Source of the DNA: Oceanisphaera profunda
Lineage (GTDB): Bacteria; Pseudomonadota; Gammaproteobacteria; Enterobacterales; Aeromonadaceae
Assembly: GCF_002157895.1 (NCBI RefSeq)
Contig: NZ_CP021377.1
Span: 1,922,001-1,986,000 of the forward strand
Direction of reading: 5' to 3'
Length of the DNA: 64,000 nucleotides
Each line of letters begins with the position of its first letter. Positions within the stretch are counted from its first letter, which is position 1. This document shows, one piece after another, positions 15,584-27,313 of the stretch. Below the pieces are notes generated by a model. That model was given only the letters and a program-made list of their open reading frames with translations. It ran no database searches and was not told the DNA's origin. Made by a program: the position numbers and the translations under genes.

Positions 15584-15653
15584 GGAGTAAAGTGTGAAGG
15601 GTAAAAGATAAACATAGCACGAACAAGCTAGGGTGCGTTCTCAATTATGCCAG

Positions 15654-16034
15654 CTAGATAACGGCTGACACGAGGCTCAACATTGACTCGTAATTTTTTG
15701 CCAGTCGTTCGTACCTAGTTGCTATACGACGAAATTGCTTCAACTTTTGGAAGAAACGCTCAACCAAGTTGCGATCATTATAAACATGACGATCCAACGG
15801 CCTTGGCTCCAATCGATTTTTTCTTGAGGGTATCACCGCTTCTGCTCCAACACTTTGAATACTTTCAACAAACGCATCTGAATCATAACCCTTGTCAGCC
15901 AAGACCTGGCTAGGCGTAAAACCATCCAACAATGCCTCTGCTTGATCATATTCTGAGGCCAGCCCTAGGGTTAACAGTAAGCGCACGGGGTTGCCTAAAG
16001 CGTCAACGGCAGCATGGGTTTTAGTCGTTAGTCC
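15654..16034 (-). pseudogene. IS5-type transposase, C-terminal part (copy A)
   Basis: This encodes the second half of the DDE domain: TKTHAAVDALGNPVRLLLTL, the second Asp in VLADKGYDSDAF and the Glu in LVERFFQKLKQFRRIATRY. The 5' part lies at 17302-17661 on the far side of the inserted IS4-type element. A Trp codon three from the end is TAG here. Confidence 0.85.
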
Positions 16035-17292
16035 CTTAGCCATCCCCTCATAAGAACTAGAGCTGGCGTGGCTTCGCGGGTAAAATACCTGCCTTGATAC
16101 CAAACTCGACAACACGGCAGCCCATTATTACCCGCGATACTATATCCGAACACCTCGATGACATCTTTGGCCAAGATATGCATGCAAAGTGGGTACTTTC
16201 ATTAGCTAATGCGACTCAAGGTGTTATTGAATCTAGCTCGTTGGCCATTCATGCAATCGGTAATGGTCTCGCACAAGCAAATGGGTTAGAGCGTAAATAT
16301 GCCATCAAACAAGTTGACCGCTTATTGAGTAACAGCAAACTCAACGTGTGGTCATTATTCGATGATTGGGTGCCTTATGTGGTGGCCGAGCGTAAAGAAA
16401 TCGTGGTCTCCATGGACTGGACGGAGTTCGATGCCGATGATCATAGCAGCATCGTTATCAGCATGCAGACTAACCATGGTCGCAACACGCCACTGCTCTG
16501 GAAAACCCATCAGAAATTACAGCTAAAAGGTTAACGTAATGCCCATGAAGATGAGCTGTTGCTGAAGCTAAAAAATAGCATGCCAGACGATGTTTCTGTT
16601 ACCGTCGTTGCCGACCGCGGTTTTGGAGATACGGCGTTGTTCGCCCTACTGGAAGATGCGTTAGGATTCAGCTACCTCATTCGTTTTAAAGGAAATATTT
16701 TGCTCTGCCCTGTCGGCGAAAAGCTAACCCCAGCGAAGCAGTGGCTCACACCGAGTGGCCGTGTTCGTACACTGAAAGACATAGAGCTGACCACTCACCG
16801 CCAACCGGTTGCGCGGGTATTTTGCTGTAAGAAAGCAGGTATGAAAGAAGCGTGGTTTTTAGCAAGTAATCGCCGAGACCTAAGTGCTGCCAATGCCCTC
16901 AAACTCTATGGTAAACGCTGGGGGATTGAGTGCAGCTTTCGTGACATAAAGGACTATAAATTCGGCATGGGAATGTCCGATACGCACATTAGGTCAACCA
17001 CGCGACGCGACCGTTTATTCTTGTTCAGCGCCTTAACGATTGTGTTGCTGACTTTCCTAGGTAAAGCCGGTGACGCTGCTGGATTGGAGAAGACAATTAA
17101 AGCCAATACCAGCAAAACACGCACCTACTCTTTCTTTCGGCAAGGGTGCATTTATTATCAAATGCTACCGAAGATGAAAGAGGAGAATGCCATCAAGTTA
17201 ATGAAGAAATTCTCCTACTACTTGTCTCAATATCGATTATACAAGCGGATCTTCGGTGTTATTTAAGCAATAAAAATGAGGGAATCTCTAAG
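16035..17292 (+). mobile_element. IS4-type insertion sequence with 9-bp target duplication
   Basis: A 1258-bp element. Its ends are imperfect inverted repeats (CTTAGCCATCCCCTCAT and, reversed, CTTAGAGATTCCCTCAT). It is flanked by the identical 9-mer CGTTAGTCC at 16026-16034 and 17293-17301. Removing the element and one 9-mer restores the copy B sequence, proving where and into what it inserted. Confidence 0.92.
16094..17266 (+). pseudogene. IS4-family transposase with internal stop
   Basis: One continuous frame encodes the DDE transposase: the first Asp in VSMDWTEFD, the second in VVADRGFGDTALF, and the IS4 signature R-W-G-I-E ... K in KRWGIECSFRDIKDYKFG. An in-frame TAA at about 16532 (probably AAA to TAA) splits it after the KLQLKG segment, and the frame then continues RNAHEDELL. 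The assumed start is TTG 16094. The element is therefore probably immobile unless helped in trans. Confidence 0.87.
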
Positions 17293-17301
17293 CGTTAGTC
17301 C

Positions 17302-17661
17302 ACCTCTAGACTTCCCCATGGCTTCTGCATCTTGCTCTTTTTTTAGCCGCCCCATGTTGATGGACACGAACGATACTACCGTCGATCATTAGTTGCTCAA
17401 AATCAGCTTCCTTGGATAACTCCTCCATTATCGTGAGCCAGACGCCTTTGTGAGACCAACGACTATATCGGACGTAAACGCGGTGCCAATGCCCATAAAA
17501 ATCAGGTAAATCCCGCCAAGGTGCGCCAGTTCGAGCAATCCAAAGTACCGCTTCAACAAATTTGCGATTATCAAGTGCTGTCACGCCTCTATCGCTAGCT
17601 TACCCGGGAGCAGTTCTTCGATGCGCTCCCATTGATCATCTCGTAGCAAGTAATGCATCAT
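17302..17661 (-). pseudogene. IS5-type transposase, N-terminal part (copy A)
   Basis: It matches copy B's first frame (DNRKFVEAVLWIARTG, WRDLPDFYGHWHRVYVRYS, first Asp in LMIDGSIVRVHQHG). One base is missing near 17601 after MMHYLLRDDQWE, and the slippery A run at 17338-17344 is one base short, so the downstream frame closes. Confidence 0.85.
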
Positions 17662-17730
17662 AAGTCGTTACCTCACAAGTAGTTACTTCAAATACTATAA
17701 AGGTAGCTAATGCCTAGGGTGCGTTCTCAA

Positions 17731-18138
17731 TTATGCCAGCCAGATAACGGCTGACACGAGGCTCAACATTGACTGGTAATTTTTTGCCAGTCGTTCGTAC
17801 CTAGTTGCTATACGACGAAATTGCTTCAACTTTTGGAAGAAACGCTCAACCAAGTTGCGATCTTTATAAACATGACGATCCAACGGCCTTGGCTCCAATC
17901 GATTTTTTCTTGAGGGTATAACCGCTTCTGCTCCAACACTTTGAATACTTTCAACAAACGCATCTGAATCATAACCCTTGTCAGCCAAGACCTGGCTAGG
18001 CGTAAAACCATCCAACAATGCCTCTGCTTGATCATATTCTGAGGCCTGCCCTAGGGTTAACAGTAAGCGCACGGGGTTGCCTAAAGCGTCAACGGCAGCA
18101 TGGATTTTAGTCGTTAGTCCACCTCTAGACTTCCCCAT
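17731..18138 (-). CDS. IS5-family transposase, second frame (OrfB)
   Basis: About 135 residues with the second catalytic Asp (VLADKGYDSDAF) and the Glu (NLVERFFQKLKQFRR) of a DDE transposase. It is expected to be made as a fusion with the first frame by -1 slippage on A8 (18157-18164), giving the complete enzyme over 17731-18482. Confidence 0.85.
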   Translation of the reverse strand: MGKSRGGLTTKIHAAVDALGNPVRLLLTLGQASEYDQAEALLDGFTPSQVLADKGYDSDAFVESIQSVGAEAVIPSRKNRLEPRPLDRHVYKDRNLVERFFQKLKQFRRIATRYERLAKNYQSMLSLVSAVIWLA

Positions 18139-18482
18139 GGCTTCTGCATCTTGCTCTTTTTTTTAGCCGCCCCATGTTGATGGACACGAACGATACTACC
18201 GTCGATCATGAGTTGCTCAAAATCAGCTTCTTTGGATAACTCCTCCATTATCGTGAGCCAGACGCCTTTGTGAGACCAACGACTATATCGGACGTAAACG
18301 CGGTGCCAATGCCCATAAAAATCAGGTAAATCCCGCCAAGGTGCGCCAGTTCGAGCAATCCAAAGTACCGCTTCAACAAATTTGCGATTATCGAGTGCTG
18401 TCACGCCTCTATCGCTAGCTTTACCCGGGAGCAGTTCTTCGATGCACTCCCATTGATCATCTCGTAGCAAGTAATGCCTCAT
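18114..18482 (-). CDS. IS5-family transposase, first frame (OrfA)
   Basis: A 122-residue N-terminal part with MRHYLLRDDQWECIEELLPG, WRDLPDFYGHWHRVY and the first catalytic Asp in LMIDGSIVRVHQH. The frame runs past the A8 stretch and stops at 18114. A -1 shift on A8 enters the second frame. Confidence 0.87.
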   Translation of the reverse strand: MRHYLLRDDQWECIEELLPGKASDRGVTALDNRKFVEAVLWIARTGAPWRDLPDFYGHWHRVYVRYSRWSHKGVWLTIMEELSKEADFEQLMIDGSIVRVHQHGAAKKKSKMQKPWGSLEVD

Positions 18483-18565
18483 AAGTCGTTACCTCACAAG
18501 TAGTTACTTCAAATACTATAAAGGTAGCTAATGCAGCCGAAGCGTCAAATGAGAACGCGCCCTAG

Positions 18566-18599
18566 TCATCTGGCTGGCATAATTGAGGGCGCACCCTAG
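18566..18599. repeat. Orphan IS5-type end in inverted orientation
   Basis: 34 bases ending in CTAG. On the minus strand they read GGGTGCGCCCTCAATTATGC and onward, matching the left terminus of copies A and B apart from two bases. No transposase belongs to it. It is the scar of a third element, or of a rearrangement, and touches the jetD 3' end. Confidence 0.75.
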
Positions 18600-18603
18600 T
18601 TTT

Positions 18604-19790
18604 TCAAGGTAAGTGAGCCAGTGCGGCTTGTAGTAACGAGAAAGGGATTCTCTCTTGTTCTAGGCGCAGGTTAGGTTGCCAGTGATGTTGTTTGAGTTGT
18701 TGATAGAGCTGCTGTTCAGTTTCGTTTAGGTGCGGTAGCTGCATTGCAGAGTGAGGTTTGGTCTCACTCCCCATAGTGGGCGACAGTGCGCTAGAGTATC
18801 GTTGTCCATCAGTAGTGATTGTGTGTGCGGAAAATAGCTACGTAACTGCGAGAGCATGGCAAAGCCATGGCTGTCGATATCTCCCCAATAATGAATACGA
18901 CAATTTGCCAACCAAGGCAGGTGCTGCAGCATTTGCACGCCATAACCTAGGCCGTAGATCACTAAGGCGTTGCGCACGCCCGGAAAGGCCAAGCCGTTCA
19001 CTTTATTTTCGGTAATAAATACCCGGTCGAGTAATAGATCTAACTTGCTAAAGGCGCTCAGCGGAATACTCAGCTCATCAAGGCCACCTAGCTCGGCCGC
19101 AAGAGCGGGATCGAGCAGGCGAAAACTGACTGTGGGCTGCTCGTAATTAAGGCCGTAGCGTTTCTCGAAACCGTGCTCTCTCAGGCCATTAACGCCTTCA
19201 TCAATCGCTGTGGCGGGCAGCAGTTGGTCGAGTAACACTTTAAGAATGGCTTTGTGGGCTTCAATAAATTTGCTGTCCACACCTGAGATATCGAGTTGGC
19301 GGATATAAAGGCCTGGCCGTGGCTGGTTTACCAGATAACGACACACTGCCAGTAGTTGTGGCCAACGACCAGCGTATTTGCCAATGGTAGCCGTTGCTTG
19401 CGCTAACCATGGCGTGAGTTGCGGGAAACCGTCGCCGATCAGTTTGCAGTCGGCAACGAAGTGTCGCCAAGGTTGCAGTTGACCGACAAAACGCGCCAGT
19501 GCCTCCATGTTGGCGAACTCGATGGCCACCGGTAAGCGCTGGCGGCCCATGGTCGAGAATTGAAACTCTTGCTCAATGAGCGCCACCTCTTTAGCTGTGC
19601 TGAGCTCATTACGCAATTGCAACAATTGGCGCTGATATAAGGCAAAGTCATGCAGCAACTGCTTGTCGCTGAGGCGAGGGAGCTTAATCTGGTAGGGAAA
19701 GCTCAGCGTCTCCTCCAGCCAAGCTTGGTGCCAACCTAAGCGCTGCCATTGTTTACTTAGCTTGTGGCGAATGGCCTTAACATCCAACAT
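18604..19790 (-). pseudogene. jetD: Wadjet JetD (Toprim nuclease subunit), frameshifted near the 3' end
   Basis: JetD is the DNA-cleaving partner of the Wadjet SMC complex, which destroys incoming plasmids. The N-terminal DUF3322 part (1-about 190) and the Toprim-like DUF2220 part follow the family plan, with Glu261 in FITENKVNGLAFPG and Asp304/Asp306 in YWGDIDSHGF. After LWG (residue 341, about 18770) one base is missing, and the frame ends 13 codons later at 18726. Restoring the base continues the protein as SETKPHSAMQLPHLNETEQ ... NLRLEQERIPFSLLQAAL to a stop at 18604, about 395 residues. The lost tail contains the conserved LEQERI motif. It starts 4 bases after jetC. A sequencing error is the main alternative. 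Confidence 0.85.
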
Positions 19791-19794
19791 AGAG

Positions 19795-22700
19795 CTAGCT
19801 TATCTCCCGGGTCATCTGGTTGTAAGGTTGTAATTGCTGCTGATGCTGATCTAGCTGTTGGCGGTATTCTGCTATGGTCATGTTGAGCACGATAGAGCGA
19901 TTTTGCTGCTGATCGACGAAGTGCACATGTTGCACATAGTGTTCGATAATATCGAGTTTCTGTAATGGCGTAACCAGCAGCAGTTGCAGACCCAGTTTTT
20001 TAAATAACTCTAGGCCAAAACGGGTGCTGTCTTTCGAGCCACGAGCGAAGGCTTCGTCGATAACCACCAAGTTAAAGCGGCGCTGCTGTTGACCTGCTGA
20101 TGTTTGTTGAGCCTCTTGGCCAACCAATCGGTATTGCAGCAAGATGGCGGCGGCCAGAATGGAGTAGGCGAGCTTTTCTTTTTGGCCACCAGACTTACCC
20201 CCAGAATCTGAGTAGCATTCTTTTTCACTATTATCTTCACGAAAGCGTTCAATCACGTTAAATAGCTGCCAATAGCGTACATCTACTACTTTTTTGGTCC
20301 ATTTTGGATCGTTGCGCATTTGCTCAATCAAGCTTTTAACCTGCTCAAATTTCTGTTCCGAATACAGGTTGTCGTCGGTGGCATATTCCACGCATTGCTT
20401 CAGTCGTTGCTTAAATTCGCGGATCTCTACATCCGGTGAGGTCACGCCATCCACTTCGATATAGGTTCCATCTTGATAGTCCAGCTCGTGTAGTGACTGG
20501 TTGATGAGGCGAATGCGCGCGGCAATGTCTTCTTCTTGGCGGTCGAGCTGACTGCGAAACAGTGCCATGGCGCGAATGGTGTCTTGGTTGAGCATCTTCT
20601 TAAAACGGGCTTCGTGACGCGGCAAGTCTTCTTGTTGCAACTGGCTTAATAACGCCTGATATTCCGCTAATGCGGCCAGGCTTTGATCGAGCTCGGTGAC
20701 ATCATTAGGGAAGGCGTGACCAAACTGGGCCATGGCTGCGATCATCTGGCTTTCTTTGTTGTTACGCTTTTTCTCTAGACTCTGAATTCTGTCATTTAAC
20801 TTAGTGCGCAGCAGGCTGCCTTGGTTAGCCAGCATGTCGATGCGCAGGTTGTCGTGGGCACCATATTGGCGAAATAAGGCGCTCAAACTCGGGAAGTACT
20901 GCTCTTTGGCTGTATCGGATAAGGCGTGCAGCTGAGCTTCATGCTCGGCTAACACTTTGCTGAGCGATTCAATTTCATTGCTGAGTTTACCGCATTCGGT
21001 TAATCGCTCATCTCGTTGCTCTTGCAGTGCGACGAGGCTGGTTTTGGCCGCTTGCAGGTTTTTCTGCAGAGTTTGCAATTGGTCTGACGATTGTTCGAGC
21101 AGCCGATATTCCTGCTCTAGTTGCTCAATTTGTTGCGCTAATTGCGGCCAGTTAAGTTGTTCGAAGTCGAGATCAAACTCCGCCAGATTTAAAGCTTGGC
21201 GGCGTAACTCGTCGAGCTGCTCGCGCTGCTGTTGATGTTGGCTCAGTTGGGTATCTAATGCGGCTATGGCCTGCTGAAGTTGCTGCAATTGGCTGCTTAA
21301 TAGCTGGATCTTTTGCTTGTTGCTCCAGCCCAGTACATAACGGCTTTGGTCGTTAATGGCGTAGCGGTCGTCTTTTTCATGCCGAGAAGGGCCCGATTTT
21401 ATTTGACCCTGAGTGGTCAGGCCTTTGTGGCTGCGACGAAAGTCTGCCACATTGGCACAACACTGATAATTAAAGCGCTCGCTCAGCTCTTTATCTAACC
21501 AAGCGTAGAGCGGGCTATCGGGTTTAATTTCAACCTTGCTGGGTAGTTGATCTGGCTCGGATTGCACGGGCAAATGAGAGTTAAGCGTTTTGACTCTGTG
21601 ATAGACCAAGCGTGAACCCAGTTTAGTTTGTTCAATAAAATCACTGACCGACACATACAAATGCTCGGGCACTAACAGGCTGAGCGCAAAGTTATGTAAC
21701 ACGCGCTCTATGGCGCCTTGCCAGACTTGTTCATTCGGCTTGATTTGCAGCAACTCACCAACAAAAGGCAGCTCAGTTTCGGCGATATTTAGCGCAGTGC
21801 AGAGTTGTTCGCGGATCCTTAACTGGCGTAGTGGCAGATTGGATTGCCGCTTTTTCAGTGCGGTGAGCTCGTCATTGAGCGCGCCTTGTTGCAACTGCTG
21901 CTGATTAATCGTTTGTTTTAGCTCATCTCTTTGTTGTTCTGCTTGATCTTGCTGCTGACCTATCTGCTCCACATGCGCTTTAGCTTGGGCCATATTGGTG
22001 ACGAAGGTGTCACTCTCTAGCAATTCAGTTAAGCCTAAGGCGCGCACCAACAGTTGGTAGCGGTCGTGATTGCTTTTACGTTGATTGCGCTCTTTGCCGA
22101 GGCGTTGGATGTCGGTGGTTAATTGTTGTAATCGGCCGCCGCCTTGGCTGCGCACATCTTCGGTTAACTGTTCAATTTGTAACTGATGTTGGCTTAATTG
22201 TTCGCCAAGTTGTTGCCGTTTGAGCAGGGCTTTGTCTTGGTCGAGCCGTTTTTGCTGGAGCCGTTTCTGATACAAGGGCACCGCTAGGCTGGCCATAAAC
22301 ACCTCGCTGAGCTCGCGGCTTTGATTGAAGTGCTCTTTTTCTTGTGCTGCACTTAGCGAGTCATTACCCAGTAGGCTAACCGGTTCCAGTAAACTGACTT
22401 TTTGTCGCGCCGCCACTACCGCATCGTGCACCCGTTTTAGGGCATCATAGTTGCTTTCTAGCTCAACGATTTGTTTTTCTATCTCGGGGGCGGTGAGCAT
22501 ATTTTGCCGCACAAAATCCGTTACCGAACCCACCGATTTCATGGAAATCGTTTGGTTAAACAGCTCCAGTGCGCGGCCATCGGCGCCTAAGCCTAGTAGC
22601 TTGCTAAAACATTGTCGGTAGGGTGCAAAGCTATCAAAAATCTCGATGCCAGCCTGTTTACGCAAGTTCTTTTTGAGATCGACGATCTTGCTGCCAAAGT

Positions 22701-23217
22701 TGGCGAAGTGACTGGCCAGCCTTAGTGTAGAGGGTGCCACCACGAAGAAGCGCTCTACTTTACGCTCACCGGGCTTTAACCAAAACACCTGTGCTAGGGT
22801 CACATCTTGCGCTAATGCCGTGGAGTGAAACCGTGCCACTAATACGCTGTAATGATCTGAACCGCGCAAACCCACGGCTTTGGCTTTGCCGTAATCATCT
22901 TGCTGGGAGGTGTAATAGCCGTGAAAGTAAGACTCAAGAGAGCGCTCTTTATTCTCGGCACCGGCGGCTTTATTAAACGCCAAACTACGGGGTGGCACTA
23001 GCAATGTGGTGAGGCCATCGACCAGTGTGGACTTGCCGCTGCCAATGTTGCCGGTGAGTAGGCTGTTATGGCCGGCCAAGTTAAGCTGCCAAATTTTTTG
23101 ATCGAAAGTGCCCCAATTTAACACTTCAAATTGCTGCAATCGAAAACCCGTTAAGGCACCGATATGCGTATCAACATCGGTATCTGCGCTGGCATGAGTC
23201 AGTTGGGTATCAGTCAT
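19795..23217 (-). CDS. jetC: Wadjet JetC, SMC/MukB-like ATPase
   Basis: This 1140-residue SMC protein has Walker A GNIGSGKST at 56-64, long Gln/Leu-rich coiled coils (about 260-480 and 620-900) around a hinge (about 490-610), the ABC signature SGGKSGGQKEKLAY near 1010 and Walker B FNLVVIDEAF near 1050 followed by the VTPLQKLDIIEHYV switch. In Wadjet, JetA, JetB and JetC form a condensin-like machine that extrudes loops on small circular DNA and presents it to JetD. It overlaps jetB by 8 bases. Confidence 0.95.
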   Translation of the reverse strand: MTDTQLTHASADTDVDTHIGALTGFRLQQFEVLNWGTFDQKIWQLNLAGHNSLLTGNIGSGKSTLVDGLTTLLVPPRSLAFNKAAGAENKERSLESYFHGYYTSQQDDYGKAKAVGLRGSDHYSVLVARFHSTALAQDVTLAQVFWLKPGERKVERFFVVAPSTLRLASHFANFGSKIVDLKKNLRKQAGIEIFDSFAPYRQCFSKLLGLGADGRALELFNQTISMKSVGSVTDFVRQNMLTAPEIEKQIVELESNYDALKRVHDAVVAARQKVSLLEPVSLLGNDSLSAAQEKEHFNQSRELSEVFMASLAVPLYQKRLQQKRLDQDKALLKRQQLGEQLSQHQLQIEQLTEDVRSQGGGRLQQLTTDIQRLGKERNQRKSNHDRYQLLVRALGLTELLESDTFVTNMAQAKAHVEQIGQQQDQAEQQRDELKQTINQQQLQQGALNDELTALKKRQSNLPLRQLRIREQLCTALNIAETELPFVGELLQIKPNEQVWQGAIERVLHNFALSLLVPEHLYVSVSDFIEQTKLGSRLVYHRVKTLNSHLPVQSEPDQLPSKVEIKPDSPLYAWLDKELSERFNYQCCANVADFRRSHKGLTTQGQIKSGPSRHEKDDRYAINDQSRYVLGWSNKQKIQLLSSQLQQLQQAIAALDTQLSQHQQQREQLDELRRQALNLAEFDLDFEQLNWPQLAQQIEQLEQEYRLLEQSSDQLQTLQKNLQAAKTSLVALQEQRDERLTECGKLSNEIESLSKVLAEHEAQLHALSDTAKEQYFPSLSALFRQYGAHDNLRIDMLANQGSLLRTKLNDRIQSLEKKRNNKESQMIAAMAQFGHAFPNDVTELDQSLAALAEYQALLSQLQQEDLPRHEARFKKMLNQDTIRAMALFRSQLDRQEEDIAARIRLINQSLHELDYQDGTYIEVDGVTSPDVEIREFKQRLKQCVEYATDDNLYSEQKFEQVKSLIEQMRNDPKWTKKVVDVRYWQLFNVIERFREDNSEKECYSDSGGKSGGQKEKLAYSILAAAILLQYRLVGQEAQQTSAGQQQRRFNLVVIDEAFARGSKDSTRFGLELFKKLGLQLLLVTPLQKLDIIEHYVQHVHFVDQQQNRSIVLNMTIAEYRQQLDQHQQQLQPYNQMTREIS

Positions 23218-23815
23218 CTTTTTGCTCCTGCGCTGGCGTTAGTAAGACTGTAAATTCGGCAATTTGTTCGGCATTAACAAAGGCTTTGATGATGCGTTGC
23301 ACTTCGAAGTCGTCGGGCAGATTGGCGATGCTGCTTAAAAAGCCCATCTCGGCGACTTTTTTGATCAAGGCATCGTATTCGCGTTGTTGTTTTAGCTCGT
23401 TGCTGACCTCTGGGCTGTAAGGCTGCAGCCACTGGTAAATTTCTTGGCGGCTTACGATAAGCCGGGGTGCGCTTTCTTCATCGTCGTGCTCGGCCAACCG
23501 TTTACGCAGCGCCACTAACAACAGGGTTTGTATAAAAGTCAGGCTGCGCCGAGTGATCAGCCGCGGTAGCTCAGAGTCTTCACTCTCAAACTGCAGTTGC
23601 GCTAAAAAAGCATAGCCTTCGCTATTATCCAGCGTTAGCCCTAAGCCAAGATGCTGAAAGTAGTCGCGGATCACTTGTTGGTCGCGCAATAACTGCTCCC
23701 ACAAGTCGCGATGACGAGATCTATATACCGGGCCTTTCAGTAAGCGGATCAACAAGGTCGACTGGTCGAGTTGGGCTTGTTCAGAAAAAGCATGGCTGGC
23801 TAAAATATCTGACAT
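23210..23815 (-). CDS. jetB: Wadjet JetB, MukE-like (DUF4194)
   Basis: A 201-residue tandem winged-helix protein that bridges the kleisin JetA and the SMC heads. It has LIRLLKGPVYRSRHRDLWEQ, GYAFLAQ and the RRSLTFIQTLLLVALRKRL segment, with an acidic linker. ATG 23815 starts one base after the jetA stop. A longer in-frame version beginning inside jetA would duplicate jetA coding sequence and is not credible. Confidence 0.92.
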   Translation of the reverse strand: MSDILASHAFSEQAQLDQSTLLIRLLKGPVYRSRHRDLWEQLLRDQQVIRDYFQHLGLGLTLDNSEGYAFLAQLQFESEDSELPRLITRRSLTFIQTLLLVALRKRLAEHDDEESAPRLIVSRQEIYQWLQPYSPEVSNELKQQREYDALIKKVAEMGFLSSIANLPDDFEVQRIIKAFVNAEQIAEFTVLLTPAQEQKDD

Positions 23816-23816
23816 C

Positions 23817-25304
23817 TCAACGACTCCGAATAAAAGTAATGGTAGGAATATGTAGGGTGCGTGTGAGCCCAGGCTCTGGCTGCCAGCTAATGGCTTGCTC
23901 TTGTTGTTCGTCGATATGAGCCGGCAATACTTGCTCGCAGGCGAGCTTAAGATAGGTAAGGAGTTCATCTAGCCCATAGCGCAACGGATGGCGGGCTATC
24001 ACTTGGGCCAAAGTTGTTTGGCCGCCGTTATCGAGTAAGCATTGGCTGATTTGACGTTGTAGCTGCCACTCATCAATGTGACTGATGGCGAGCAATGGCG
24101 TCAGATCAACCTGCTCGCTGGCGTCGCCTAATTCTGGCTGGGAGTTAATGTGCTCACTGCCTTTATCTTGATAAAGCTGGCGGCTAAAAATAGGATTAAT
24201 GGCCGCTTGGTTGCCCGCTATGCAGGCCAGATCGGCTTTAAGGTCGATGAGCTGTTGGTCACTCTCTTGATGTGAAAGACGTTGATGGGCGAGGGCTTCA
24301 AAGTCGTGGATCAGCTCGATAATGCGGCGGTTATCTTGAGATTGCTCCTGAATATAGCGGCGCAGCTGGTCGGTAATTTGTTGGCGAGTACCGTGAACCT
24401 TGGCACCGGCCTCCAGCAGATAACTATAAAGGTGACTCAGCAGCGAGTCTTGCTGCACTAATATCCGGCCTTGTTCTTGGCTAAGCAGCTGTTGTAGGTT
24501 GTGGCGCATACTATCGCGCAACTGCGGGGTCATGAGTAACTCAAAAAACGCACTAAAGGATTGCCCTTCGTCGGAGTCATCAATTACATCTTGATGGCTA
24601 AAGATATGATCCAACACCTCGCCTTTATGGCCACCGCGTAGGCTAATGGTTTTACGGGTTTCTTTGTCTAGGCTGCGAAAGTTGGCTTCTACTTGGCGAA
24701 AATCTCCCAGCAGTTGTCGTGACATATTAGCGAGTAGAAATAGCCGCTCGCGCACCTGAGTGTCGGAGAAGCCGCTGTCTTGGCCCAGTTCAACGGCGAT
24801 AATCTCTTGTTCTAACTCCGCCTTACGCGCTTGCAAGGTGTGCAGTTTGGCTGCGCTGTCTTCGCTGGTGCCTTGTACTAAGTCGCCTATTAGCTCGAGC
24901 AGCATCTTCAGCCGCGATTCGGTACCCACAAACTGTCGACCTTGAATTTCTTCTAGCCAGCGCAGTACTTTTTCAACCTCTGGCAACAGGTCACACTCTG
25001 GCTCGTCGGTCTGCTGCGGTAAGTATTTACGCAGATAGCCGCCTTTGACGTTAATCCAATCATCAATATAAGCCCGCGCCGACTTGGGAAATTTTTCTTC
25101 GCCGTAGCTGTCGGTAATATTAAATAGATGCTGCTCTAGCAAGGCCACCAGCTCTAAATAAGGAATACTGCGGCGATTGGTGGCAATAAAGGCATGATGA
25201 AAGAAGCTGGCCAGCAAGGCGAAATGCTGGGAACGCAATAACCGTAACGCTAGGCTGTGCTCTTTAAATTGCTCGAGCTGATCGTAATTTAAGGCGGTGT
25301 TCAT
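23817..25304 (-). CDS. jetA: Wadjet JetA, kleisin-like (DUF3375)
   Basis: This 495-residue protein is the kleisin-type subunit that clamps the JetC heads. The family features are the N-terminal SLALRLLRSQHFALLASFFH, YIDDWINVKGGYLRKY and FVGTESRLKMLLELI, a helical middle, and a C-terminal winged-helix-type region. It overlaps the upstream WYL gene by ATGA, so the regulator and defence genes form one translationally coupled unit. Confidence 0.93.
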   Translation of the reverse strand: MNTALNYDQLEQFKEHSLALRLLRSQHFALLASFFHHAFIATNRRSIPYLELVALLEQHLFNITDSYGEEKFPKSARAYIDDWINVKGGYLRKYLPQQTDEPECDLLPEVEKVLRWLEEIQGRQFVGTESRLKMLLELIGDLVQGTSEDSAAKLHTLQARKAELEQEIIAVELGQDSGFSDTQVRERLFLLANMSRQLLGDFRQVEANFRSLDKETRKTISLRGGHKGEVLDHIFSHQDVIDDSDEGQSFSAFFELLMTPQLRDSMRHNLQQLLSQEQGRILVQQDSLLSHLYSYLLEAGAKVHGTRQQITDQLRRYIQEQSQDNRRIIELIHDFEALAHQRLSHQESDQQLIDLKADLACIAGNQAAINPIFSRQLYQDKGSEHINSQPELGDASEQVDLTPLLAISHIDEWQLQRQISQCLLDNGGQTTLAQVIARHPLRYGLDELLTYLKLACEQVLPAHIDEQQEQAISWQPEPGLTRTLHIPTITFIRSR

Positions 25305-26245
25305 AGGCTGGCTCCGGGGAATAGGGCCTTATTAGTGATGGCTTCTAGCTGGCGATGATCTGCGAGTGCTAGCGGGTATTGCGCCGGATTGAGTTGATAG
25401 TTGGGCGAGCAGTCGACCAGCCATTGTTGCATCACATAACCGAGCAAGGCTTCGCGCACTGCTAGCGTGAGCCGTGCCGTGCCTTTTTCTCTCTCCATGC
25501 CGCTCTCTACCTCCATGCCGCTCTCTACCTCCATGCCATAATCGAGCTCGATGGCTTGCGGATACGGCAATTTAGGATGCGCCATTAAGGTGAGCGGCAA
25601 AATATGGTGCCAACTGGTGTCTTGTGCCTGTTGCTCGCATTCAGTTACTGCTTGGTCTAGCGGTTGAATGCGAGTAAAGCGGGTGAGTACGAAGTCACGA
25701 AAGCTCTGGCTGCGCCGATCGAAGGCGCGCACGTGCCAGCGCCGGCCGTTGTTCACCAAGGTATGCGGCACTAACTCGCGGCTTTGTTGGCCAGAAGACA
25801 AAGAAACATAATCACAGCTAATGGCTTGGCGTTGGCTAATGGCCAGCAGCAGCGGTGCTAATAGCCGCTCGGCGGGCATGGTGATGGGCACAGCCGCTAC
25901 ACAAATCCCATTCAGACTCGGGCCCATGGTGAGATCTTGCCAAGCATGCTTGCTGAGTTGGTCGAGCAGCAACTGCGGATCATGGTCGAACAATGGAGCA
26001 AAAGCGGCGGTGCGGTAATACAACTTGGTATCGTGGCGCAGTGTTAGGTTGCTAGGAGCCAGTTCTCGATAGAGGGCTAAGTCACGAGTGCCCGATGCCA
26101 GGCCGGTTTTAAAGGTGTGCAGCAAGTCGGCGCGCGCCACCTGGCCAAAATAATGCAAACAGCAGTCGATAAAACGCAGCCGCTCACGCTGGGCATGGGG
26201 GTAAGCAGTAAGGTCCAGTGTCTGAGATGCAGAAACTTGAGTCAT
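25301..26245 (-). CDS. WYL-domain transcriptional regulator heading the Wadjet operon
   Basis: This 314-residue protein has an N-terminal winged-helix region (about 15-75: RLRFIDCCLHYFGQVARADLL) and a WYL-type ligand-sensing domain (about 120-220: AISCDYVSLSSGQQSRELVPHTLV, RWHVRAFDRRSQSFRDFVL). A C-terminal extension follows that resembles the dimerising tail of defence regulators such as BrxR and CapW. Residues about 235-253 contain an in-frame 18-bp tandem repeat. The gene is first in the jet operon and overlaps jetA by four bases. Two palindromes overlapping its promoter suggest autorepression. The regulatory role is inferred; the fold assignment is good. Confidence 0.85.
   Translation of the reverse strand: MTQVSASQTLDLTAYPHAQRERLRFIDCCLHYFGQVARADLLHTFKTGLASGTRDLALYRELAPSNLTLRHDTKLYYRTAAFAPLFDHDPQLLLDQLSKHAWQDLTMGPSLNGICVAAVPITMPAERLLAPLLLAISQRQAISCDYVSLSSGQQSRELVPHTLVNNGRRWHVRAFDRRSQSFRDFVLTRFTRIQPLDQAVTECEQQAQDTSWHHILPLTLMAHPKLPYPQAIELDYGMEVESGMEVESGMEREKGTARLTLAVREALLGYVMQQWLVDCSPNYQLNPAQYPLALADHRQLEAITNKALFPGASL
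25493..25537. repeat. 18-bp in-frame tandem repeat in the WYL gene
   Basis: Two identical 18-bp units (25493-25510, 25511-25528) and a 9-base partial third encode GMEVES twice, then GMEREKG. Because the unit is a multiple of three, copy-number change would alter length but not frame. Confidence 0.85.
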
Positions 26246-26272
26246 AGCAGGCAGCCAATAATGAACATGACT

Positions 26273-26314
26273 AAATCATAATGATTTCATCTTAATGGTG
26301 CAATCATTATGATT
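26273..26314 (-). promoter_or_regulatory. Twin palindromic operators over the predicted wyl-jetABCD promoter
   Basis: Perfect palindromes AAATCATAATGATTT (26273-26287) and AATCATTATGATT (26302-26314) share the half-site AATCAT and have centres 28 bases apart. On the minus strand a TATGAT -10 box lies inside the first (26275-26280). A weak TTGCAC -35 (26298-26303) overlaps the second, with exactly 17 bases between them. The start codon of the WYL gene is 28 bases past the nearer palindrome. A dimeric repressor bound here would block RNA polymerase. Confidence 0.75.
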
Positions 26315-26344
26315 AGATGTGGTCGATTCGGCTCCAACGCTAAA

Positions 26345-26375
26345 GCGAGATCCTGACCTGCGTCAGGAGGACGGC
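26345..26375. repeat. Dispersed palindromic repeat, copy 2
   Basis: GCGAGATCCTGAC/GTCAGGAGGACGGC with a short loop. It lies in the divergent-side spacer between the jet operon promoter and the end of the LysR gene. Confidence 0.75.
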
Positions 26376-26443
26376 TTAAATACAGTGCCAACAACAAAAC
26401 ACCGTATCATGTGAACGGCACTGACTTTATTTGGGCACAAGAG

Positions 26444-27313
26444 TCACTGCCGACAAATCTCATCACAAGCGTTGATCAGCTGCTCGGCGAGAATCTTGCT
26501 GTGGGCCGAGAGTTTGTCTTGGGCGTGTAGGGTGAGCTCTAAATCTGGCACCTGCGGCAGGCCGTCTTGCTCGGTTAAAATACGATGTTCAGCCGTGACT
26601 AAGCGCCGTGGCAGTAACGAGATACCAAAGCCGGCTTCTACCGCGCAACATACGCCAGACAAACTGGTGCTCACATACGCCAGTCGCCAGCTGCGGCCGA
26701 GGCGGTCGAAGGTGTGGGCCATTTCGCTGCGATATAAGCCGCCGATGGGGAAGGTCACCAGCGGAATGGGTTGGCTGTCGAGGTTATTGCTGTGCAGGCT
26801 ATCAATCCAGCATAAGGGCTCGGGCCAACTCACTAAACCGGGCACGCTGCCTTGGCGCTGCTTCACTAAGGCAAGGTCCATATCACCACGCTGAAATTCT
26901 CGCCAAATATCGCTGCATAAGCCGCTTTTTACTTCTAACCGTATGCCAGGATATTCATTAGAGAAGGCGGCGAGGGTGGGCATAATAGCGTGGGTGGCGA
27001 AATCTTCGGGTACGCCTAAACGAATTTTTTGTTGCTCGGCGCTGACGCTGGTTTGGGCCACGGCTTCGTTCATCATCTGCAAGATACGCCGTGCATAGCT
27101 GAGCACGCGCTCGCCCTCAAGGGTGGGCGTTATGTAGCGACCTTTACGGTGCAATAACTCGCAGCCAAATTGTGCTTCTAGCTTGCGCACCTGTTGGCTG
27201 ACCGTTGATTGGGTGAGGTGTGTGCTTTCTGCGGCACGGGTAAAACTGCCGGTATCGGCCACGGCAATAAAACTGCGCAGCAAGATCGGATCTAGGGTGA
27301 TGTTTAAATTCAT
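26444..27313 (-). CDS. LysR-family transcriptional regulator
   Basis: A 289-residue protein with the LysR winged helix at residues 8-66 (LRSFIAVADTGSFTRAAE, LTQSTVSQQVRKLE) and a periplasmic-binding-type effector domain from about 93. Its target is not obvious. Ignoring the IS3-type element, the next gene on the other strand is allE, which would make the pair divergent, a common LysR arrangement. The effector is unknown. Confidence 0.85.
   Translation of the reverse strand: MNLNITLDPILLRSFIAVADTGSFTRAAESTHLTQSTVSQQVRKLEAQFGCELLHRKGRYITPTLEGERVLSYARRILQMMNEAVAQTSVSAEQQKIRLGVPEDFATHAIMPTLAAFSNEYPGIRLEVKSGLCSDIWREFQRGDMDLALVKQRQGSVPGLVSWPEPLCWIDSLHSNNLDSQPIPLVTFPIGGLYRSEMAHTFDRLGRSWRLAYVSTSLSGVCCAVEAGFGISLLPRRLVTAEHRILTEQDGLPQVPDLELTLHAQDKLSAHSKILAEQLINACDEICRQ

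Follow-up and report, generated by a model that had tools for sequence, protein, structure and literature searches.

Twin palindromes as probable operators of a BrxR-family WYL regulator before a type I Wadjet operon in Oceanisphaera profunda

How might an operon for Wadjet, an anti-plasmid defence system, be kept silent and then released? The question is raised by a locus in a 64-kb window of the Oceanisphaera profunda genome (the window being the whole stretch of DNA that was analysed), where two palindromes lie upstream of a WYL regulator gene followed by jetABCD. An account of how a Wadjet operon switches on was not found in the literature searched. Passages on regulation in a Wadjet review (PMC10586767) name no Wadjet regulator, and titles and abstract openings, mostly outside the subscription literature, name no Wadjet operator or repressor. 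From the sequence and by analogy with characterised relatives, we consider it very likely that the palindromes are the operators of the operon's own BrxR-family WYL repressor, whose dimers would block the promoter until an inducer releases them. For Wadjet, the locus supplies two compact candidate operators that lend themselves to testing, together with a defined candidate repressor.

The regulator and its Wadjet operon

The first gene of the operon (25301–26245, minus strand) is brxR-like and encodes a protein of 314 residues with a wHTH–WYL–WCX architecture and a Pfam WYL match of 1.6e-13. The original prediction described a WYL-type regulator overlapping jetA by ATGA, and this overlap is present, with the stop of the regulator gene running into the jetA start at 25304 on the minus strand. 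jetA (DUF3375, 23817–25304, minus strand) matches the PADLOC model JetA1 at 5.6e-142. The jetB open reading frame (DUF4194, MukE-like, 23210–23968, minus strand) matches JetB1 at 1.2e-63; the profile match begins at residue 63, so the true start is probably internal, near 23815. Then come jetC (SMC-like ATPase, 19795–23217, minus strand; JetC1, E 0, 1275.6 bits) and jetD (nuclease subunit, 18726–19790, minus strand), which carries both Pfam JetD domains, DUF3322 and JetD_C. Together, the PADLOC models JetA1, JetB1, and JetC1 and the Pfam assignment of JetD give the gene set of a type I Wadjet.

JetD is not intact in this copy. The JetD_C match covers positions 1–132 of 179, and the protein has 354 residues versus open frames of 403, 395, and 411 residues in three relatives. 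The shortened jetD may leave the nuclease inactive, or it may reflect a sequencing error. The end residues of JetD are unlike those of the relatives, and the missing part seems to lie in another frame, with IS sequences nearby. Directly downstream of jetD, at 15600–18620, we observe near-identical IS4/IS5-type transposase stretches, with self-matches of ~98% over 407–423 bp; IS transposase genes flank the locus on both sides. Within the regulator gene, an 18-bp tandem repeat of 2.5 copies (25493–25537) gives extra VESGME units in the C-terminal domain; it is not present in the closest relative (L114). Given this repeat and the shortened jetD, the locus may be in decay, and the argument on regulation leans on relatives as much as on the window copy. 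Among close relatives, Oceanisphaera pacifica and an Aeromonadales MAG were located by name.

By homology and predicted fold, the window protein is a BrxR-family regulator. It is 36% identical over its full length to Escherichia fergusonii BrxR (115/317), whose structure, 7qfz, is its best solved relative (phmmer 7.7e-57). An AlphaFold model built from a 37-row alignment has a mean pLDDT of 90.4, and Foldseek with this model places 7qfz at the top (E 3e-30), followed by the DNA-bound Acinetobacter BrxR (7t8k) and CapW. The protein shares with the BrxR/CapW family its architecture, full-length homology, a place before a defence operon, and a palindrome on its own promoter. In the model, the recognition helix corresponds to approximately residues 49–62. 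Arg156, Arg169, Arg173, and Arg189 of the WYL region are invariant across the 37-row alignment, which is consistent with a ligand pocket, although short of proof.

Two palindromes over one promoter

Two perfect palindromes sharing an AATCAT half-site had been noted upstream of the regulator gene, and both are present, with starts 28 bp apart. Candidate operator 1, the upstream one on the −35 side, is a 13-bp perfect palindrome at 26302–26314 (minus strand). It reads AATCATTATGATT on the plus strand and AATCATAATGATTGCACC on the transcribed strand, where its final TT is the start of the −35 hexamer. Candidate operator 2, downstream at 26274–26286 (minus strand), is the 13-bp perfect palindrome AATCATAATGATT and contains the −10 hexamer; when 26273 and 26287 are counted, it becomes a 15-bp palindrome, AAATCATAATGATTT (26273–26287). 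The regulator gene starts 28 bp downstream of this second site.

The pattern AATCATNATGATT has two exact matches in the window, both at the twin sites, and these are also its only exact matches in the whole genome of 3,508,860 bp. With up to two mismatches, there are 6 matches in the window versus 2.29 (sd 1.29) in shuffles. Fourteen further genomic places match with one mismatch; a reversed control pattern gives 4 in all. The exact sequence AATCAWWWTGATT occurs in this genome at the two candidate operators and nowhere else. Fur and ArgR boxes, scored against consensus motifs, fit poorly (12/19 and 13/18, respectively), and neither falls on a palindrome.

On the minus strand, supported by comparative alignment, we read a −35 hexamer TTGCAC (26298–26303) and, 17 bp from it, a −10 hexamer TATGAT (26275–26280). 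TTGCAC agrees with TTGACA at 3/6 positions. A consensus promoter and terminator scan of 26100–26500 listed nothing, the TTGCAC/TATGAT pair included, and the case for the promoter therefore rests on comparison among loci. For this comparison, loci were aligned by the palindrome alone after removal of near-duplicates (n = 41), and TAnnnT was not a selection criterion. TAnnnT is found at offset +34 in 27 of the 41 deduplicated loci, with 6/41 at the next best offset and a mean of 0.89 elsewhere; offset +34 lies 17 bp after the −35 whose TT ends the palindrome. The promoter was originally read by eye, with the −10 within one palindrome and the −35 overlapped by the other. The aligned loci uphold this reading, since their −10 sits 17 bp after the palindrome-borne −35. 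The palindrome core of the sequence logo is circular, because the sites were chosen by it, and the −10 signal escapes this circularity. On its right side, the logo has an extension that is mostly GC (G 68%, C 63%); in some loci the extension is symmetrical, as in AAAGGTGTAATCATTATGATTGCACCTTT at L141. By analogy with the Acinetobacter BrxR, the extended site suggests half-sites of ~10 bp with a short spacer.

Conservation of the site with BrxR-family genes

Homologues of the window protein were drawn from 149 relatives (31/149 genomes with a match) and from 394 genomes of the order (69/394), sets that overlap and include the own genome, and two named loci (L035 and L036) were added. The scored set comprises 93 loci. 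The window, L205, L206, and L058 are omitted from it, five further homologue matches lie outside it (G043:C75, G700:C2, G782:C5, G601:C10, and G752:C98), and L033/L034, which are the same loci as G010/G011, are counted once. Each locus is scored by its match to AATCAnnnTGATT, out of 10, in the 250 nt preceding the gene. Sites of 10/10 occur at 28/93 homologues versus 0/434 control upstream regions and 1/1860 random windows, and sites of at least 9/10 at 48/93, 7/434, and 33/1860, respectively; some of the 93 loci are near-copies of one another, and the controls are upstream regions of other ORFs at the same loci, some of them mechanical and perhaps not genes. Conservation upstream of orthologous WYL genes, which the original prediction named as a check, is borne out overall, with L036 as an exception.

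Sites of at least 9/10 become scarcer as protein identity falls, from 14/17 at 45–60% to 1/9 at 25–35%. No such site is found upstream of 45/93 homologues, most of them outside the 45-row clade of the window protein and 10 within it. The two WYL paralogues of the own genome (L205 and L206), 27–28% identical, have best sites of 8/10 and 7/10 and no clear operator. Three of six plasmid WYL loci (Aeromonas media, Shewanella aestuarii, and Burkholderia pyrrocinia) have a site of at least 9/10, the six having been hand-picked from a list of 40, out of 290 plasmid records that match WYL. A site of at least 9/10 accompanies 34/47 proteins with the recognition-helix class GLA[AS]xTRD and 15/47 of the others (window included), a link between helix class and operator that is suggestive only, since the classes were drawn post hoc and the sequences are related. 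Other BrxR-family clades (L164, L170, L175, and L176; L161, L165, and L172; L167, L171, and L173) have palindrome-like sequences of their own in similar placement, such as CCTAATAAAATTAATTAGG, TATCAAAATGATA, and ATTCAATGTGATT, and their recognition helices differ. A specificity code, formed by clade-specific palindromes and differing helices, is possible.

Across the window, G010 (L114), and G011 (L115), no palindrome position varies (26/26 conserved), as against 18/63 conserved in the flanks (Fisher 5e-11, with positions treated as independent), and each palindrome retains its own centre base across the three. The twin arrangement is limited to these three closest loci. In the deduplicated set of 41 loci, a second site of at least 9/10 at +28 is found in the window and L115 only; L114, which nearly duplicates the window, shares its site pair. 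Second sites at other spacings occur in three of the 41 (+14 in two and +23 in one). G042 has operator 1 alone, and exact AATCAWWWTGATT occurs in that genome at its WYL-jet locus only. An extra AATCAWWWTGATT in G010, away from the WYL-jet locus and by eye within coding sequence, was put down to chance.

The palindromes could also be promoter sequence with a chance symmetry. The promoter itself constrains part of the sequence, because the −10 lies inside one copy and the −35 is touched by the other, and the logo cannot settle the matter, its sites having been chosen for matching both halves. However, the left half of operator 1 lies outside both hexamers and is still invariant in the window, G010, and G011, and 10/10 sites are absent from all 434 control upstream regions. 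We find chance symmetry barely credible and continue to read the palindromes as operators.

The WYL-jet arrangement is also found in L036, from an Osedax symbiont, with a WYL protein of the same clade, yet the best site there is 7/10. In a loose inverted-repeat scan of this locus no operator stood out, and the recognition helix of its WYL protein begins differently (ASASSTRD). The WYL proteins of the window, G010, G011, G042, and L036 form one clade (support 99/95), so WYL and jet were likely joined in one event.

A WYL gene accompanies a close Wadjet in G010, G011, G042, and the Osedax symbiont and is absent at the locus in G006 and G091, whose JetA proteins are 90% (G006, same genus) and 62% identical to that of the window. 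In the 4.4 kb covered at each of these two Wadjet loci, including 1.5 kb upstream of jetA, there is neither a WYL gene nor a site of at least 9/10, and the G006 genome has no WYL match and no AATCAWWWTGATT anywhere. At L075 (G006), an apparent LysR fragment, identified by eye, and a short ORF stand directly before jetA, in the place of WYL. Besides that of the window, 2/40 JetA loci have a BrxR-type WYL gene in their flanks (20 loci from a class search and 20 from an order search; flanks of up to 1.5 kb, some reaching contig ends), and the WYL searches contributed two further WYL-jet loci, G011/L115 and L036. On plasmids, JetA retrieved five records, 30–35% identical. At L199 (G037), a distant Wadjet (JetA 27% identical) is divergent from a WYL gene, with the 9/10 site GATCATTATGATT between them. 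At L186 (G692), the WYL gene is followed by HmaA, and upstream of it, in divergent orientation, is a weak JetA match (26% identity) close to the edge of the locus; the best site is 8/10.

A LysR gene (26444–27313) lies just upstream of the window operon in the same orientation, and AT-rich palindromes are common as regulator sites. The palindromes might on these grounds serve another regulator (this LysR, Fur, or ArgR), unrelated to the WYL protein. This is highly improbable: the site follows BrxR-family genes across many genera with differing neighbours, and in G006 the LysR fragment (by eye) persists while WYL and the site are both gone. The comparison of loci thus sustains the view of the sites as putative operators, conserved, tied to the cis-encoded WYL gene, and covering the −35 and −10 of its promoter.

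The same operator is found before other systems. At 19 chosen loci, one or two ORFs behind WYL were scanned against PADLOC; 14/19 have a match and L119, L160, L141, L131, and L125 have none. Behind WYL genes with a site of at least 9/10 we observe BREX genes (L128, L192, L195, and L179), methyltransferases of type IIG (L118) and type I (L035, L148, and L166), Hma (L127), C3a139 (L194, L174, and L171), and a DrmD-like helicase (L162). By Pfam, further ORFs are of no defence type: FKBP (L141), cation efflux (L121), TerB (L146), esterase (L130), flavin oxidoreductase (L117), and LysR (L123). L117, L121, L130, L141, and L146 have a 10/10 AATCAnnnTGATT despite the non-defence ORF behind, with one or two ORFs per locus considered. 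Part of the BrxR family may consist of orphan chromosomal autoregulators. One operator code is thus found with BREX, type I and type IIG restriction, Hma, DrmD-like, and Wadjet genes, as well as with WYL genes backed by non-defence ORFs. Because the operator is common to WYL genes before such varied systems, the regulator–operator pair has the character of a portable module.

The original prediction also raised the possibility of an undescribed Wadjet subtype, which we do not retain. JetA, JetB, and JetC match type I models, and the WYL gene is not constant in the Wadjet lineage: G006 and G091 have none at the jet locus, and other close Wadjets do have one. Moreover, Wadjet is among the systems reported up to 50 kb downstream of BrxR homologues, as given in passages of Picton 2022 (PMC9122601). 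The repressor–operator pair is best read as a portable module joined to Wadjet rather than as a new Wadjet subtype. With the nearness of BrxR homologues to Wadjet known already from that report, the useful wider result is the shared operator code, which makes cross-regulation between defence islands testable with one probe.

Proposed mechanism and known systems

Binding by the WYL protein, repression rather than activation, an inducer, and two dimers are what we infer; the sites, their geometry, conservation, and genomic uniqueness, their absence together with WYL at two loci, the protein family, and the operon are observed. A WYL homodimer would bind each palindrome through its wHTH domains, with dimer 1 over the −35 and dimer 2 over the −10. 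The 28-bp centre-to-centre spacing would leave room for two ~25-bp footprints side by side. With dimers on both promoter elements, RNA polymerase would be shut out, so that expression of wyl-jetABCD would stay low and the repressor would be negatively autoregulated. A ligand of the WYL domain would release the dimers and turn Wadjet on; single-stranded DNA, reportedly an inducer for CapW and BrxR, is the likeliest candidate.

The WYL protein could instead bind the palindromes as an activator that aids a promoter with a weak −35. The −35 is indeed poor (TTGCAC, 3/6) and was missed by the consensus scan, and excerpts of the literature describe activators among WYL proteins (DriD, PafBC, and SiwR). 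However, a site on the −10 itself has the geometry of steric repression. In passages of the respective reports, BrxR-Efer (36% identical) and CapW, which are the nearest characterised relatives, act as repressors, and the fold match to DriD/PafBC is far weaker (E ~1e-7 to 1e-10 versus 3e-30). We therefore judge activation improbable and favour repression.

A possible, if doubtful, extension of the repressor model is that Wadjet is inducible, with the WYL protein sensing single-stranded DNA from conjugation or rolling-circle replication and freeing jetABCD for expression at such times only, and that the shared operator acts as an exchangeable plug silencing newly acquired operons. Given that BREX, restriction, and orphan loci have the AATCAnnnTGATT code in common, an incoming WYL-controlled defence operon could be silenced by the WYL protein already resident.

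The window regulator resembles BrxR-Efer (pEFER, 7qfz) in its wHTH–WYL–WCX architecture, its place before a defence operon, and the inverted repeats at its own promoter. According to passages of Picton 2022 (PMC9122601), BrxR-Efer represses its own promoter, and inverted repeats lie upstream of 193/347 BrxR homologues. In contrast to the window regulator, BrxR-Efer controls BREX and type IV restriction rather than Wadjet, and its R-BOX core, CCTACTG-AAAAA-CAGTAGG, has a different sequence and lies downstream of the −10 (same passages). The recognition helix is APSVATQD in BrxR-Efer and GLASGTRD in the window protein.

BrxR of Acinetobacter sp. NEB394 (7t8k, 7t8l), 24–25% identical to the window protein in the fold alignment, likewise has an operator overlapping its own −35, as described in passages of Luyten 2022 (PMC9122589). 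The site consists of two 10-bp half-sites with a 5-bp spacer; unlike the window, this system has a single operator, ATACCGTAAAAATAATTTACTGTAT, the recognition motif SRQQ, and a BREX operon. In the same passages, deletion of brxR raises BrxC expression, and a stop codon or a mutation blocking DNA binding has little effect on restriction.

CapW, 26–28% identical in the fold alignment, is a homodimer bound to a palindrome over the −10, a placement also seen at the window locus, and represses in uninfected cells, according to passages of Blankenchip 2022 (PMC9122588). It differs in controlling a CBASS operon and in having single, imperfect palindromes of 19–24 bp. Compared with type I Wadjet, the window operon has the same four subunits in the same order, plus a regulator gene in cis.
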